Both the position numbers and the translations under genes were made by a program. A stretch of 64,000 nucleotides of DNA from Bacillota bacterium (GTDB lineage Bacteria; Bacillota; Bacilli; Alicyclobacillales; SLC66): positions 1 to 64,000 of the forward strand of contig JAPNUP010000051.1 in NCBI GenBank assembly GCA_026627345.1, given 5' to 3'. The notes under the pieces were generated by a model, which searched no databases, was not told the DNA's origin, and saw only the letters and a list, made by a program, of their open reading frames with translations. This document shows positions 8,159 to 55,505 of this stretch, piece by piece (the first letter of the stretch is position 1; each line of letters begins with the position of its first letter).

Positions 8159-9133
8159 TCACATAAACACTTCAGTGAGCAACGGAAGTCCGTCTAGTCC
8201 ACGCAAAATGTTGTCAGCCGTTAAAAGGGCCATGGCTTCCCGCGTTTCATGTGTCGCGCTGCCTATATGCGGCGTCACGATGACATTTTTCATATGTAGC
8301 AAAGGGTGTTCAGCCGGAAGCGGTTCAGGATCGGTCACATCCAAAGCGGCGCCGGCAATGACACCCTCTTGCAAAACGGCGACAAGAGCTGCCGTATCAA
8401 CGACTTGACCGCGTGCAGCATTGACAAAAAACGCTGAGCGTTTCATCTGTGCGAATTGCGCAGCCCCGAATAGTCCCCGCGTATGCTCTGTCAGAGGCGT
8501 CAGCACAACGATACAGTCAGACTGTGCTAACACCTCTGAGAGCGTCCCATAAACGGCTCCTAGCTGCTGATCACCCATGCGCCTGCTGCGATTGTGATAC
8601 ATCACGTGCATGTCACTTGCGAGTGCCCTTTTAGCCACTGCAGACCCGATATCACCCATGCCGATGATGCCAAGTGTCTTCAAAGCCAAGTCATGCCCAT
8701 AAGGCATTGCCTCTCCATGCGCGAATCGCCCACTTCTGACGTGATCGACAGCTTCAACGAGCCGGCGCATCACGAGCAGCACCAGCGCAAACGTCAGGTC
8801 GGCTGTGGCATTGACGAGAACACCAGGGGTGTTGGCGAATGGAACACCTTTCGCTTTGCAAGCCTTTACATCTACGTTATCGTACCCGACCGCAGATTGC
8901 GCGATGACGCGCAATCGGGGCGCTTTCGCCAGCAATGATCCGTCCACCTGAATGCCCCCGTGCGGCACAAAGGCATCTGCATCTTGCAACCACTCCATGA
9001 GCGTAGCATGTGGAATCGCATGCTTAGCATCATCCCACACCCGTAAGGTGCAGCTTTCCTGCAGACGCGAGGTGAGAGCCGGATGCACCGGTCCTGCGAT
9101 CACCACGCGTCTTTCTGTACGCTGATCACTCAC
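8159..9133 (-). CDS. D-isomer-specific 2-hydroxyacid dehydrogenase (glyoxylate/hydroxypyruvate reductase-like)
   Basis: A 324-residue NAD(P)-dependent dehydrogenase with a split catalytic domain around a Rossmann domain. Visible are the nucleotide-binding [10 protein letters not shown], the catalytic Arg in NAARGQVVD, the Glu in DVTDPEPL and the His in TPHIGS. The arrangement fits glyoxylate/hydroxypyruvate or 2-ketogluconate reductases rather than serA, since no ACT domain follows. The GTG start at 9133 overlaps the spo0A stop as GTGA, so it is probably translated in step with spo0A. I know of no functional link between the two. Exact substrate uncertain. Confidence 0.88.
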
Positions 9134-9981
9134 ACTTTATGCTCCATTCGTAACTTGTCTGCGATCATGGCGATAAATTCCGAATTGGTCGGTTTCGCCT
9201 TACTCATACTGACAGTGTAACCGAATACCTGGGTGATGGCTTCACTGTTGCCACGACTCCAAGCCACTTCAATGGCATGGCGAATCGCGCGTTCGACGCG
9301 CGAAGAGGTCGTCGTGAACTTTTTAGCAATCTCCGGGTACAAGACTTTGGTGACTGAACCCAAGATTTCAATGTCATTGTACACCATCATAATGGCTTCT
9401 CGTAGGTACTGATATCCCTTAATGTGCGCTGGTACACCGATTTCGTGAATGACGCCAGTGACCAGTTGATCGATGCTACGTGTTTTTGGCGCAATCGACA
9501 CCAGTCGCGGCGAGGACATGGTCTGGGTAGAAGGTAGCGCATAACTGACACTCATCGCCCCGCCAGAAGATCCCACTGCCGCACGGGTACGCTCGCTATA
9601 GATCTCCACTTTCATGACATCGCGAATTCGTTCAAGTAAAACATCGAGGTCAAATGGTTTGAGTACATAGTACAATGCACCCAGTTCCATAGCTTTTTTC
9701 GTGATGGACTCTTGTCCAAACGCCGTTAACATGATTGTGCGCGGACAGGCGCCACCGTCGACAAAGCGCAGGCGTTCCAAAACGCCGATACCGTCTAGTA
9801 CAGGCATAATGATGTCGAGTACGAGAACATCCGGCTGGTGTTGCTCGATCTGCGCAAGAACCTCTTGTCCGTTATGCGCAACACCTACAACTTCCATGTC
9901 CGCGTGATCGCTTAAATACTCATACAGCAGATCCGCGAACTCCCTATTGTCGTCTGCAATCAAAACGCGCGTTACATTCAC
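9130..9981 (-). CDS. spo0A: Stage 0 sporulation response regulator Spo0A
   Basis: Master regulator of sporulation entry, 283 residues. The receiver domain has Asp10/Asp11, the phosphorylated Asp56 (VLDIIMP), Thr86 and Lys108. The C-terminal DNA-binding domain carries [20 protein letters not shown] and the recognition helix [20 protein letters not shown], nearly identical to other Spo0A proteins, ending [16 protein letters not shown]. The frame extends to an ATG at 10080, but the GTG at 9981, preceded by AAGGGGG, gives the normal N-terminus; the extra 33 codons have no receiver homology. It follows spoIVB, as in B. subtilis, and is separated from it by a terminator and Spo0A boxes. Confidence 0.97.
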
Positions 9982-10017
9982 TATTAGACAATCCCCCTTA
10001 ACATTCTCCTTCTTCCA

Positions 10018-10102
10018 TTCGACATATTGGACAATCGTTCCTGTCTGATCCACAAAAGACTTTCCGACGGCTTCAGACATCGAGCCCTCATATTTTGTCG
10101 AA
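10018..10102 (-). promoter_or_regulatory. spo0A upstream region with two Spo0A boxes
   Basis: TGTCGAA, the core of the 0A box, occurs at 10018-10024 (minus strand) and within TTTGTCGAA at 10094-10102 (plus strand). A weaker AGTCGAA is at 10106-10112. All lie in the 140 bases between spoIVB and the chosen spo0A start. Autoregulation of spo0A through such boxes is known in B. subtilis. The sigma-A and sigma-H boxes are not clear enough to mark. Confidence 0.6.
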
Positions 10103-28842: not shown

Positions 28843-29544
28843 TTACGACGCTGATTCTTCTCCGCCTTGCGCACCTTCGATATAAGCTTCCGCCATTTTG
28901 TTGCACAATAGTTTGACGGCGCGGATCGCATCATCATTGCCTGGAATCACATAGTCAATCTCATCCGGATCACAGTTGGTATCGACAATACCGACGATCG
29001 GGATACCGAGTTTACGCGCTTCAGCCACTGCAATGCGCTCTTTGCGCGGATCAATAATGAATAGCGCACCCGGCAATTTCTTCATATCTTTAATGCCGCC
29101 GAGGAATTTCTCGAGGCGTTCCATCTCTTTGCGAAGAATGATGACTTCTTTTTTAGGCAAGACATCAAATGTTCCATCTTGTTCCATCTTCTCAATCTCG
29201 CGAAGGCGCTCAATCCGCTTTTGAATCGTCGAGAAGTTTGTCATCGTTCCACCTAGCCAACGCTGGTTGACATAGTAGCAGCCACAACGGGCAGCTTCAT
29301 CGCGCACAGACTCCTGCGCTTGTTTCTTCGTTCCCACAAACAGAATCGTCTTGCCTTCAGAAGCAATCTGACGGACAAAGTTGTACGCCTCTTCGACTTT
29401 CTTCACTGTTTTTTGCAAGTCAATGATGTAAATGCCATTGCGTTCTGTGAAGATGTACTTGTCCATCTTCGGATTCCAACGACGCGTTTGGTGACCGAAA
29501 TGCACGCCGGCCTCCAGTAATTGTTTCATCGATATGACAGCCAT
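28843..29544 (-). CDS. rpsB: 30S ribosomal protein S2
   Basis: Small-subunit ribosomal protein, 233 residues, with the S2 signatures [20 protein letters not shown] and, later, [19 protein letters not shown] and [22 protein letters not shown] precedes the ATG at 29544. It is followed by tsf in the universal order. Its own strong promoter and a folded leader lie upstream, separating it from the fla operon. Confidence 0.98.
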
Positions 29545-29564
29545 GATTGAACCCCTCTCAAGTT

Positions 29565-29638
29565 ACACCTCCGCCGTAGTCGGCAAACGGCCCCCTGCTA
29601 TCGGAGATAACAGACTCAGCCCTTCTCGGACGGCGTGT
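29565..29638 (-). promoter_or_regulatory. Folded 5' leader of rpsB, possible S2 autoregulatory structure
   Basis: Just after the predicted transcript start, ACAC-GCCGT pairs with ACGGC-GTGT across a four-base bulge (29565-29568 and 29573-29577 with 29630-29638). The closed stem holds an inner eight-bp hairpin (29595-29602 with 29606-29613, three-base loop, one wobble). Ribosomal protein S2 operons are often controlled through such leaders; no exact known motif is recognised. Confidence 0.45.
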
Positions 29639-29655
29639 GATTTTGTGCCTGTAAA

Positions 29656-29684
29656 AGTATATCATCACTGATCTATATGCACAA
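29656..29684 (-). promoter_or_regulatory. Sigma-A promoter of rpsB-tsf
   Basis: TTGTGC (29679-29684) and TATACT (29656-29661) are 17 bases apart, an excellent fit. The start point would be near 29648, giving a leader of about 100 bases. Confidence 0.8.
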
Positions 29685-29702
29685 GTTCCAAACAGCTCGA
29701 AG

Positions 29703-30179
29703 TTATAGAGGAAGTGATTGGTCACTCTCCAGAAGTCGCGCTACGAGATCAACCTCTGCCTGTCCTAAGTCGAGTTCTTTCATAACGGCTTCCCGAGGGT
29801 GCCCCGCCAATAGTCGCTCAGCGACAGTCCGATAGCGCGCTGACAGATACCCGGGAACCGCGAGCGACTGCCCACCGTGGCCGATTTGATTCATTTGCGT
29901 CTCCAGGCGCGATGCGCGGGCTGACAGATCGTTGGTCTGCTGCCGAAGGTATTCGCCAGCCTGTCGCTGCTCGATCTCCAGCCCATCAATCTTCTGGCGC
30001 AAGAGCGACAGCATCTCAATGAGCCGCTCATTTTCCTCTTCCATCTCCCGCGAAAACGCTTCGAGAGCTTGCACGACTTCTCCGGAAGCTTTGGCAGGAC
30101 GCACGGCCTTTCGTCCGCGCCACCAAAAGAGTCCGGCCACAATCGCCACCAGAATCCATACTACCGCCTGTACCGACAC
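29703..30179 (-). CDS. SwrB/YlxL-like (DUF2802-type) membrane protein
   Basis: About 158 residues: one N-terminal membrane segment (VVWILVAIVAGLFWW), a coiled coil rich in Glu and Arg from ~35 to 100, and a C-terminal helix-turn-helix-like unit (YRTVAERLLAGHPREAVMKELDLG...VARLL). This is the architecture of SwrB/YlxL and DUF2802 proteins, and the position at the end of the fla operon is the same; B. subtilis SwrB promotes assembly of the flagellar export apparatus. GTG at 30179 is nine bases from AAAGGTGG; a GTG at 30200 lacks a good site. Confidence 0.72.
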   Translation of the reverse strand: MSVQAVVWILVAIVAGLFWWRGRKAVRPAKASGEVVQALEAFSREMEEENERLIEMLSLLRQKIDGLEIEQRQAGEYLRQQTNDLSARASRLETQMNQIGHGGQSLAVPGYLSARYRTVAERLLAGHPREAVMKELDLGQAEVDLVARLLESDQSLPL

Positions 30180-30217
30180 TGCATTCGTCCACCTTTCCAC
30201 TTCTCATAAATGGGCGC

Positions 30218-31630
30218 TCAACGCACAGGGCGTCGTTCAAACCCATCCTGTGTAAGCGTGTACTGACAAGGCCTAGTCAACTCATCCAGATACATCGTAG
30301 CGGCACTCGCCTCCAGGCGTACGCCAGGATAAGCGACCCCACCAATTTGCAAGAAAGGTTCCGGTTGACCAAGTACTTCCTCCCACTGCATTCGCTCTGC
30401 TTCCATTTGCTCGATCTGCTGACGGAAAGTCTCCACTTCCTCGTGCAATTGAAGCAGACGTGAAGAGTCGCCACTCTGGTTTTGTTGGCGCAACAGACCC
30501 AAGAGGTGCAATCGCTCAGTCTCGCTTTGCAAAAGTGCGCCTGAAAGTTTCGCGAGCGCCTGCTCGCAGGCTTTCAGCCGGTCTTTAGCGGACGGAAAGT
30601 AACCCAACCGGATAGGCGTCGCCGTAGACAGATGTGATCCGATGACGCGTGCGAATAGGCTCTCTGTGACCTGCGTTTCCCCACCTACCAAGAGTCCGCG
30701 TTTACCGACCATCCGCAACCTCTTGGCCGTCACTTTTGAGTGCATGACACTATCAGACACCAACAGCTCCCCAGCGACGACTACTGTGGCATTTTGCAGA
30801 TACATTGCCCGCATATTGCCCTCTACCTGCACACGCGACCTGCGCGAGCCCTGTACGCCACCGCGAACAGTGAGATTTCCACCGGCACTGACATCTGCCG
30901 CTTCAATGATGCCATAGATTTCAATGTCATGGGCGGCTTTAACTGTAAAACCGGATTTCACATTGCCTCGAATGACGATCGTCCCTATGAAGTCGATGTT
31001 GCCAACACTAAAGTCCACATCCTCATCGACGTAAAGAATCGGTGTAACGCTCACGCGCCGGTCTGGCCCGTAACTCAGCTGTCCATCGATCGCCGCCGTC
31101 AAGGTTAGGCCATCATCACTGATTTGCGTACCTTTGCCTGCAGGCAGTGGCACGGCTTTAGGCATTTTCGGCAATACTGGCACGTTGCGAACATCCGTTC
31201 CCGGATCGCCTGGTATCGCCTTCGTCTTCGTCGCGAGCAGTTGCCCCGCCACAGCCGTCTGCATGATGCCGAGTTCCCGAAAATCAACCGTTCCATCGTC
31301 CCGCTCAACTAGCCGGATCTGCGGATCAGGATCAAAGTGTAAAGTCACCGTCTCAGGAATCGATTCCGTGGGTGGACGTCCAACCGCAACGACAACGCCT
31401 GACATTCGATCCAGCCAACTGTCAAGTACATCTTGCAGCGCCGCCTCAGACAACACGCCGTAGCGCACGCCGTGTTGTCGAAGTATCGCCAGAAATTGCT
31501 GGACAGTTGGCACAAATCCGGAATCCGCAGGGGGACGCTCACGAAAGTCGACCACCGCTCGCAACCGGTCAACATTCATCTTGACTGACACATAGTCCGC
31601 CAACTGCGGCGGCTCGACGACCTCATCCAC
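30218..31630 (-). CDS. FapA/DUF342 family polymer-like protein
   Basis: 470 residues of the FapA (DUF342) family. A central right-handed beta-helix region (about 190-340) shows repeated short turns such as DFIGTIVIRGNVKSGFTVKA and ADVSAGGNLTVRGGV. An N-terminal domain precedes it, and a coiled coil (370-425) follows. The family occurs at the ends of flagellar operons in many Bacilli and Clostridia, but its role is not firmly known. GTG at 31630 is chosen because GGAGGG is six bases away; an ATG two codons earlier abuts that site. It follows cheD directly, where sigD would stand in B. subtilis. Confidence 0.85.
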   Translation of the reverse strand: MDEVVEPPQLADYVSVKMNVDRLRAVVDFRERPPADSGFVPTVQQFLAILRQHGVRYGVLSEAALQDVLDSWLDRMSGVVVAVGRPPTESIPETVTLHFDPDPQIRLVERDDGTVDFRELGIMQTAVAGQLLATKTKAIPGDPGTDVRNVPVLPKMPKAVPLPAGKGTQISDDGLTLTAAIDGQLSYGPDRRVSVTPILYVDEDVDFSVGNIDFIGTIVIRGNVKSGFTVKAAHDIEIYGIIEAADVSAGGNLTVRGGVQGSRRSRVQVEGNMRAMYLQNATVVVAGELLVSDSVMHSKVTAKRLRMVGKRGLLVGGETQVTESLFARVIGSHLSTATPIRLGYFPSAKDRLKACEQALAKLSGALLQSETERLHLLGLLRQQNQSGDSSRLLQLHEEVETFRQQIEQMEAERMQWEEVLGQPEPFLQIGGVAYPGVRLEASAATMYLDELTRPCQYTLTQDGFERRPVR

Positions 31631-31651
31631 ATGCATCCCTCCATATCCGAC

Positions 31652-39154: not shown

Positions 39155-39910
39155 TCAGTGGAATCCTGCCAGAATGGACTTAACGACAAGATACCAGCCG
39201 TTGACCATCACGAACAAAAGCAGTTTGAAAGGTGTCGAGATCAGCACTGGCGGTAACATCATCATGTTCATGGACATCAGTGTCGTTGCCACTACCAAGT
39301 CTACAATGAGAAATGGGACATAGATCATGAACCCGATCTGAAAGGCCGTTTTCAGTTCGCTGATAGCGAACGCCGGAACCAGCGTCGTAATGGGCAGGTC
39401 CGTCAAGGTCTTTGGCAACGGCAGATGCTGGTACTGCAAGAACAGTTCCACATCGTCAATACGGGTTTGCTTTGCCATAAATTCTTTGAATGGCATCTCG
39501 CCGCGTTCGAGCGCCACCGTCTGATTGATGTGGCCTGCCAGATAAGGTTGCAACGCCTGATTATTCACTGCAGAAAAAGTAGGCGTCATGATAAATAACG
39601 TCAAAAACAGCGCCAATCCAATCAACACTTGATTGGGAGGGGCTGACTGTGTAGCCAGCGCGCTACGCACAAAAGACAAGATGACAATCACACGCGTAAA
39701 AGCCGTCATCATGACTAAGATAGCAGGTGCGAAACTCAACAGCGCGAGCAAAACGATGATCTGCAGCGTGCCTACGACACCGGCTGGACTGCTCGTCCCA
39801 GTCAGATTCAATGAGACACCCGGAAGTGAAGCCGCCTGGCTGACAGCGCCGCTAAACCCCCACACAAGCATACCGGCTAGTACAGGCAAAGTCAGACGTA
39901 TGCGTCTCAC
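39155..39910 (-). CDS. fliP: Flagellar export gate protein FliP
   Basis: 251 residues. A cleavable signal-like N-terminus (LTLPVLAGMLVWGFSGAVSQA) is usual for FliP. Membrane segments follow, with the signatures MMTAFTRVIVILSFVRSALAT and FQIGFMIYVPFLIVDLVV. GTG at 39910 overlaps the fliO stop as GTGA; an earlier in-frame start would lie inside fliO without cause. It is the main subunit of the export pore. Confidence 0.96.
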   Translation of the reverse strand: MRRIRLTLPVLAGMLVWGFSGAVSQAASLPGVSLNLTGTSSPAGVVGTLQIIVLLALLSFAPAILVMMTAFTRVIVILSFVRSALATQSAPPNQVLIGLALFLTLFIMTPTFSAVNNQALQPYLAGHINQTVALERGEMPFKEFMAKQTRIDDVELFLQYQHLPLPKTLTDLPITTLVPAFAISELKTAFQIGFMIYVPFLIVDLVVATTLMSMNMMMLPPVLISTPFKLLLFVMVNGWYLVVKSILAGFH

Positions 39911-54176: not shown

Positions 54177-54608
54177 TCACCCCGTTATCGCGGTTTGCAT
54201 CATCGAGAATTGATCATTCAAATCTTGGATCAGGGCGCTGTAGCTAATCTGGTTTTCCGCCAACGCGCTCATTTGCGCATTCAAATTCACGTTATTGCCA
54301 TTCCCTGACGTCGACGTGCTCTCATCTGTGGTGACAACCGGAGACACATATGTAGAAGCAGACGATGCACCCGACAAGTCACTCGTACTATTAGCAGCCA
54401 TGGGCAGAGCCGACGCATCTTGACCCTGTGGCAGGGCGCCTTGCGCCGCCAGGGCGTTTTGCAGTAGCGACGTGAACTGCACCCCTTGCTCCTTGTAACC
54501 TGGCGTGTTCGCGTTCGCAATGTTGTTCGCGTACACTTGCTGCTGCAACTGTCCAGCCGCGATCGCGGACGATACGGAGTTCATATAAATAGAATCCAGC
54601 GTAGACAC
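54177..54608 (-). CDS. flgB: Flagellar proximal rod protein FlgB
   Basis: 143 residues with VYANNIANANTPGYKEQGV, the rod signature, and a C-terminal LNAQMSALAENQISYSALIQ. The middle has a Ser/Thr/Ala/Gly-rich stretch of about 45 residues. GTG at 54608 follows GAGGTG; the frame runs further upstream through the promoter and terminator region and is not used. First gene of the 25-kb fla operon. Confidence 0.94.
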   Translation of the reverse strand: MSTLDSIYMNSVSSAIAAGQLQQQVYANNIANANTPGYKEQGVQFTSLLQNALAAQGALPQGQDASALPMAANSTSDLSGASSASTYVSPVVTTDESTSTSGNGNNVNLNAQMSALAENQISYSALIQDLNDQFSMMQTAITG

Positions 54609-54626
54609 GCGTTCACCTCGCCTTTT

Positions 54627-54668
54627 TTCGACACGTTTATACATTCTTCGTCTATTTCTATTCGACAA
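54627..54668 (-). promoter_or_regulatory. flgB promoter region with two Spo0A boxes
   Basis: On the minus strand TTTGTCGAA (core TGTCGAA 54661-54667) precedes a -10-like TATAAA (54636-54641), which is followed by a second TGTCGAA (54627-54633); a one-mismatch AGACGAA is between them. TTGTCG (54663-54668) as -35 would be 21 bases from TATAAA, an over-long spacing like that of the Spo0A-activated spoIIG promoter, where a 0A box overlaps the -35. No sigma-D type promoter is visible. Confidence 0.5.
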
Positions 54669-54695
54669 AGACAACCTTTCACCTTCTTTCCGCAC

Positions 54696-54725
54696 AAAAA
54701 AAACGCCATTCTTTTGAATGACGTT
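54696..54725 (-). terminator. Terminator of codY
   Basis: A ten-bp stem with one wobble pair (54702-54711 with 54716-54725), a TTTT loop, and an eight-T tract on the minus strand. It lies 15 bases after the codY stop and isolates the fla operon from the codY operon. Confidence 0.9.
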
Positions 54726-54740
54726 GCAAAAATTTTGCGA

Positions 54741-55505
54741 TTATGACCGATGTCGTACCTTATCGAGTTGATCGAGGAGTTTATCGTTCAGAATTTTAAT
54801 ATAGGTCCCTTTCATGCCAAGCGACCGCGATTCAATGACCCCTGCACTCTCAAGCTTCCTCAGCGCGTTGACGATGACCGATCTCGTGATCCCAACGCGA
54901 TCAGCCACTTTGCTGGCAACGAGCAGCCCTTCCCGACCTTCAAGTTCCTCAAAGATATGCTCGATCGCTTCGAGTTCACTGTACGAAAGGGAATCGACGG
55001 CCATTTGTACGACCGCGCGGGCGCGTGTTTCCTCCTCGATCTCGTGTGCGCGCGACCGCAGGATCTCCATGCCAACGACAGTTGCACCGTACTCGGCCAG
55101 CAAGATGTCCTCATCTGTGAATGTATCTGCGGTGCGCGACACGACCAAGGTGCCGAGGCGTTCACCGCCGCCGATCACAGGAACCACAGTCGTCACAGGC
55201 AGATCCTCTTGCGCTGCTTCGAAATGAGCCATAGGCGAAAGCGACTTGTCGTTGGCGCACGTGACATCGTGACGGAGCAAGTCATTGTTGTACTGGCGCG
55301 GAAATACAAACTGCTGATCACTAGCGTCTAGGCCGATGACATCTCCTTGATTTGCAAAACCGAGCACTTTGCCTGTTCGCGACACGACAAAAATGCTGGC
55401 ATCGATCACGTCGCGCATGACTTCGGCCATCTCCACAAAATCTACATACTGCCCGGCACGCTGTAACAGCCGATTGACTCGGCGCGTTTTTGCCAGTAAA
55501 TCCAT
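54741..55505 (-). CDS. codY: Global nutrient regulator CodY
   Basis: 254-residue repressor sensing branched-chain amino acids and GTP. The N-terminal GAF domain has [11 protein letters not shown] and [20 protein letters not shown]; the C-terminal winged helix has [20 protein letters not shown] and [20 protein letters not shown]. It follows hslU in the xerC-hslV-hslU-codY operon. In B. subtilis CodY restrains the fla/che promoter, which stands right downstream here as well. Confidence 0.98.

Follow-up and report, generated by a model that had tools for sequence, protein, structure and literature searches.

A predicted sigma-H-type promoter, usually with adjacent Spo0A boxes, upstream of the fla operon in many related Bacilli

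The fla operon of a spore-forming bacterium, like that of many related Bacilli, appears to be preceded by a SigH-type promoter, usually with adjacent Spo0A boxes. In the stretch of DNA analyzed here (64,000 nucleotides in full, hereafter the window), we read positions 54610-54700 as a sigma-H-type promoter of this operon with Spo0A~P acting on top of it, and we put the probability of this reading at roughly 0.78. SigH is the sigma factor that acts when cells enter stationary phase and begin to sporulate. Motility and sporulation are commonly presented as opposed programs, which B. subtilis links through several regulator layers. Since a sporulation-type promoter and Spo0A boxes occur together at the fla operon, swimming may share a switch with the spore decision. 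The initial annotation had tied the operon to this decision through Spo0A-type promoter sequences; comparison with relatives strengthened that core idea, but the promoter anatomy it proposed was wrong. Judged from sequence, a sigma-H-type promoter at flgB in the window genome is very probable and its use by sigma-H likely, and direct control by Spo0A in this genome is plausible, at even odds, with a sign that would probably be repressive.

The promoter region lies on the minus strand between codY (54741-55505), whose intrinsic terminator (54702-54725) separates it from the flgB promoter region, and flgB (54177-54608), the first gene of the operon. The minus-strand letters from 54695 to 54609 are GTGCGGAAAGAAGGTGAAAGGTTGTCTTTGTCGAATAGAAATAGACGAAGAATGTATAAACGTGTCGAAAAAAGGCGAGGTGAACGC, after which flgB begins with GTG at 54608, and direct reading of the sequence places its ribosome-binding site GGCGAGGTGA at 54613-54622. 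The B. subtilis sigma-H consensus is RNAGGAWWW-N11/12-RNNGAATWW. A predicted -35 element GAAGGTGAA (54678-54686) matches RNAGGAWWW in 7 of 9 positions, and a predicted -10 element GTCGAATAG (54658-54666) follows RNNGAATWW except for its last base. With the 11-base spacer between them, the whole promoter spans 54686-54658 and agrees with the consensus at 15 of 18 positions, the AGG and GAAT cores being intact. SigH promoters mapped in C. difficile share the same form (PMC7438776).

Two exact TGTCGAA copies, which the initial annotation had described as flanking a TATAAA, are indeed present on the minus strand. Box 1 (54661-54667) overlaps the predicted -10 element in the manner of box 0A4, and box 2 (54627-54633) follows the predicted start at a distance of about 14 bases. 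The TATAAA between them (54636-54641) is probably not a promoter element. A one-mismatch copy had also been reported between the boxes, but none occurs anywhere in 54609-54695, the nearest sequence being AGACGAA with two mismatches. The window contains 23 copies of the motif versus 11 expected, about a two-fold excess. The earlier view that two copies are unlikely by chance held: two same-strand copies in a 140-bp intergenic region of this composition have P ~0.0025, and over the whole 64 kb only ~0.02 same-strand pairs no more than 60 bp apart would be expected.

Related genomes point to sigma-H. The family of the window genome (G000; 2.76 Mb, 99% complete), f1, is represented by 18 genomes, and its sister family (f2) we take to be Alicyclobacillaceae. 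The codY-flgB loci of relatives were gathered with a CodY profile; a FlgB query returned no relatives. Upstream of flgB, f1 members share a conserved pair of elements, GCAGG or GAAGG plus A/T followed after 11-12 bases by G..GAAT, and the window's GAAGGTGAA occupies the same position as GCAGGAWWW/GAAGGTWWW of these members. A weight matrix was then applied to 250-bp flgB upstream regions, each compared with its dinucleotide shuffles. To limit circularity, it was derived only from 21 sites in the f1 promoters of spoVG and spo0A, two classical sigma-H genes, these sites being predicted by consensus rather than mapped. The spoVG promoters have the form GCAGGAATT-N11/12-GTGGAATAA, and those of spo0A combine AGGAAC-type -35 elements with the -10 GTCGAATTA.

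A matrix site at p<=0.05 was found in 14 of 15 f1 loci, in 35/39 f2 loci and, against ~2.5 expected, in 31 of the 49 loci from other Bacilli families, although not all loci in these counts are independent. The flgB site of the window gave p 0.003 (300 shuffles) and 0.010 (200 shuffles), values that benefit from the spo0A training sites, most of which carry GTCGAAT and so favour the window's -10. As a negative control, the same matrix detected no sigma-H site in the 37 flagellin upstream regions of f1 and f2. SigH itself is encoded in the window genome (G000:C100, E 6e-110, above the curated cut-off). At the f1 locus L013, the matrix chose GCAGAAAAT-12-GTCGAATTT, which overlaps the footprinted GCAGGATTT-11-GGCGAATGA but differs from it. 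In the sister genome G001, the best site of locus L003 (G001:C33) lies 156 bases from flgB, with repeats inserted between. This genome has two codY-flgB loci, and the other one (L225, G001:C29) carries an intact promoter and 0A-like boxes. Across the 64-kb window three sites scored above 14, namely those of flgB and spo0A and one at 39169 inside the operon. The last, GCAGGATTC-N11-GTCGAATCA on the minus strand near the fliP/fliQ junction, ranks first among the sigma-H-like sites of the window and may be an internal promoter or a chance match.

The position of Spo0A boxes relative to this promoter was also conserved. We defined the 0A box as TTGTCGAA, with a strict match of at least 7/8, and counted offsets from the first base of the -35 nonamer. 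A strict box lies exactly at -12 in 17 loci of seven families (f2, f8, f13, f20, f23, f24 and f28), versus 0.29 expected from boxes elsewhere. With relaxed matching, 23 loci of 8 families have a box at this offset and no other upstream offset has more than 3. One of the loci with a -12 box is assigned to Tepidibacillus decaturensis, and Aneurinibacillus (L038, L039) and Brevibacillus (L060) have a box at -11 or -12. We regard direct action of Spo0A at the -12 box of these lineages as probable. Within f1, six loci have 0A-like elements slightly further upstream of the -35 than -12: a pair about 10 bp apart in L006, L008, L012, L013 and L015, and a single clear box in L009. Among the five loci with a pair, the first box and the -10 are always equally far apart, whether the spacer is 11 or 12. 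The window genome has no 0A box just upstream of the -35, where its relatives carry theirs. As to the conservation of boxes upstream of flgB, one way of checking the early proposal, the group keeps the box at -12 and the window genome lacks it. Boxes downstream of the promoter, at offsets similar to that of box 2, were found in f2 (+37, +47) and f32 (+51, +52). Several loci among L190-L201 (f2, Alicyclobacillus-like) have no upstream box, and a tandem pair GTCGAATTTTGTCGG is located there between the start and the flgB ribosome-binding site.

The window also contains spo0A (9130-9975, minus strand, with a GTG start near 9975), and the DNA-binding domain of its product is almost identical to the solved Spo0A chains 1LQ1 and 1FC3. 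Its predicted sigma-H-type promoter, ACAGGAACG-N12-GTCGAATGG (10015-10044, minus strand), has TGTCGAA at the -10, arranged as at flgB. A TTCGACA is present further upstream, within 10015-10102, and the arrangement matches the conserved spo0A promoter of f1, whose members carry at the -10 TGTCGAAT, the same sequence as box 1 of the window flgB. In B. subtilis, box 0A4 overlaps the -10 of the spo0A promoter Ps, and the effect of the 0A boxes at the spo0A promoter is mainly repressive (PMC12090719).

These observations suggest the following model. RNA polymerase with SigH would turn on the fla operon when growth slows, the flgB transcript being predicted to start near 54650. In most other lineages, Spo0A~P would bind the boxes that immediately precede the -35 and, as at spoIIA, would probably activate. 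In the window genome, abundant Spo0A~P would instead cover the -10 and the downstream box and mainly shut the operon off. A mainly repressive effect is expected because the boxes coincide with the -10 and follow the predicted start by about 14 bases, and the latter position is more typical of repression. Under this model, cells would pass through a transient motile phase as they move from growth to sporulation.

It is possible, at somewhat less than even odds, that the window genome has the sigma-H promoter without any direct action of Spo0A, box 1 being simply the -10 element, box 2 a chance occurrence, and Spo0A acting indirectly by raising SigH. In this genome, the coincidence of box 1 with the sigma-H -10 means that it does not count as a separate Spo0A site. 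The upstream box of other lineages is missing. TGTCGAA is common in the window, and both boxes could be incidental. However, the pair in 140 bp is improbable at P 0.0025, downstream boxes recur in other lineages, and 0A4 at Ps shows that overlap with a -10 is compatible with Spo0A binding (PMC12090719).

Much less probable is that the conserved element is read by another sigma factor of similar consensus. The support for SigH comes from the consensus, several alternative sigma factors are present, and a second SigH-like protein is encoded in one genome (G008); yet the element equals the spoVG and spo0A promoters of the same genomes, and it shares its form with the SigH promoters mapped in C. 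difficile (PMC7438776). We consider marginally less probable still the over-spaced sigma-A promoter of the initial annotation, TTGTCG-21-TATAAA, which Spo0A~P would activate or repress as at spoIIG. The annotated hexamers do exist at this spacing (TTGTCG at 54668-54663, 21 bases from TATAAA), and TGTCGAA does overlap the -35-like one. Neither TATAAA nor its spacing is conserved upstream of flgB in the aligned f1 relatives, whereas the sigma-H elements are, and a sigma-70 scan of 54560-54800 found no acceptable promoter; on these two grounds, this promoter was rejected. In addition, 0A boxes of the spoIIG type sit over the -35 and upstream of it, not at +14. Finally, that boxes and promoter-like sequence are both meaningless is very improbable: the motif does have only seven bases and is over-represented in the window, but conservation and fixed geometry over many families contradict chance at the group level.

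Several known systems resemble this promoter in part. The closest in anatomy is Ps/0A4 of B. subtilis spo0A, also a sigma-H promoter whose -10 is overlapped by a 0A box, although Ps drives spo0A and has the further boxes 0A1-0A3. At spoIIA, which depends on sigma-H and Spo0A, the -35 GCAGGAWWW directly adjoins a 0A box, as at flgB of the relatives, and in the same genomes; spoIIA differs in controlling sigma-F and not motility, and the window flgB promoter has no upstream box. In the spoIIA promoters of f1 (L125-L141), a common CACTAGTTTTGTCG immediately precedes GCAGGAA, and this conserved block is longer than a 0A box. The spoIIG promoter likewise has 0A-like sequences nearby, but it is an over-spaced sigma-A promoter, which is unsupported at flgB. 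The B. subtilis fla/che operon is the same operon and is read from promoters between codY and flgB, as in the window; these are the sigma-A promoter PA with SwrA-DegU and the sigma-D promoter PD-3, however, and no sigma-H element is present (PMC3874003). The flgB promoter of C. difficile also drives the early flagellar operon, but mapping showed it to depend on SigA, and a c-di-GMP riboswitch and an invertible switch accompany it (PMC7438776). In the literature searched, which covered few subscription papers, no study describing a sigma-H promoter at a fla operon was found. The promoter type is known; what seems new is that it serves the fla operon and does so in many Bacilli families.

If this reading is correct, the sigma factor of sporulation entry transcribes the fla operon directly, and both programs are under one switch, an arrangement that would extend to the cultivable genera Brevibacillus, Aneurinibacillus, Tepidibacillus and probably Alicyclobacillus. 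A wave of motility would be expected as starvation sets in, and the arrangement offers a starting point for understanding how Bacilli rewired flagellar control. One scenario, for which we see about equal chances either way, is that sigma-H and Spo0A control of the fla operon (0A box, four bases, -35, 11-12 bases, -10) is ancestral in Bacilli, that the SwrA/DegU/sigma-A control of B. subtilis is a later replacement, and that an Alicyclobacillales-like order lost sigma-D, its operon being kept by sigma-H.

The gene content of the operon is relevant to the last point. The operon occupies 29703-54608 on the minus strand, its genes being presumably co-transcribed, in the order flgB-flgC ... fliF-fliG ... 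fliI ... fliK-flgD-flgE/G-fliM-fliY ... flhB-flhA-flhF-flhG-cheC-cheD-fapA-orf; sigD is absent, and rpsB-tsf-pyrH-frr follow. In 13 of 13 sampled genomes of other families SigD is encoded between cheD and rpsB, and it is absent from this place in the window and in 7 f2 genomes. In this order, the operon thus appears to have kept a sigma-H-type promoter and lacks sigD. None of the 18 f1 genomes has FliA/SigD above the curated cut-off, the matches being SigA-like and sporulation-sigma-like. With a sigma-H fla promoter, one must also ask how flagellin is expressed where sigma-D is missing. Some f2 flagellin genes have upstream GCCGATAT sequences that resemble sigma-D promoters, although these letters may encode Ala-Asp-Met of a preceding flagellin. 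The flagellin N-terminal domain (E<=1e-12) was found in most other f1 members and in neither G000 nor G001, the two genomes of the window's genus, which might reflect an assembly gap, a divergent flagellin or its loss. At the end of the operon in the window (28843-31636), fapA and a short gene occupy the place that sigD has in other Bacilli.
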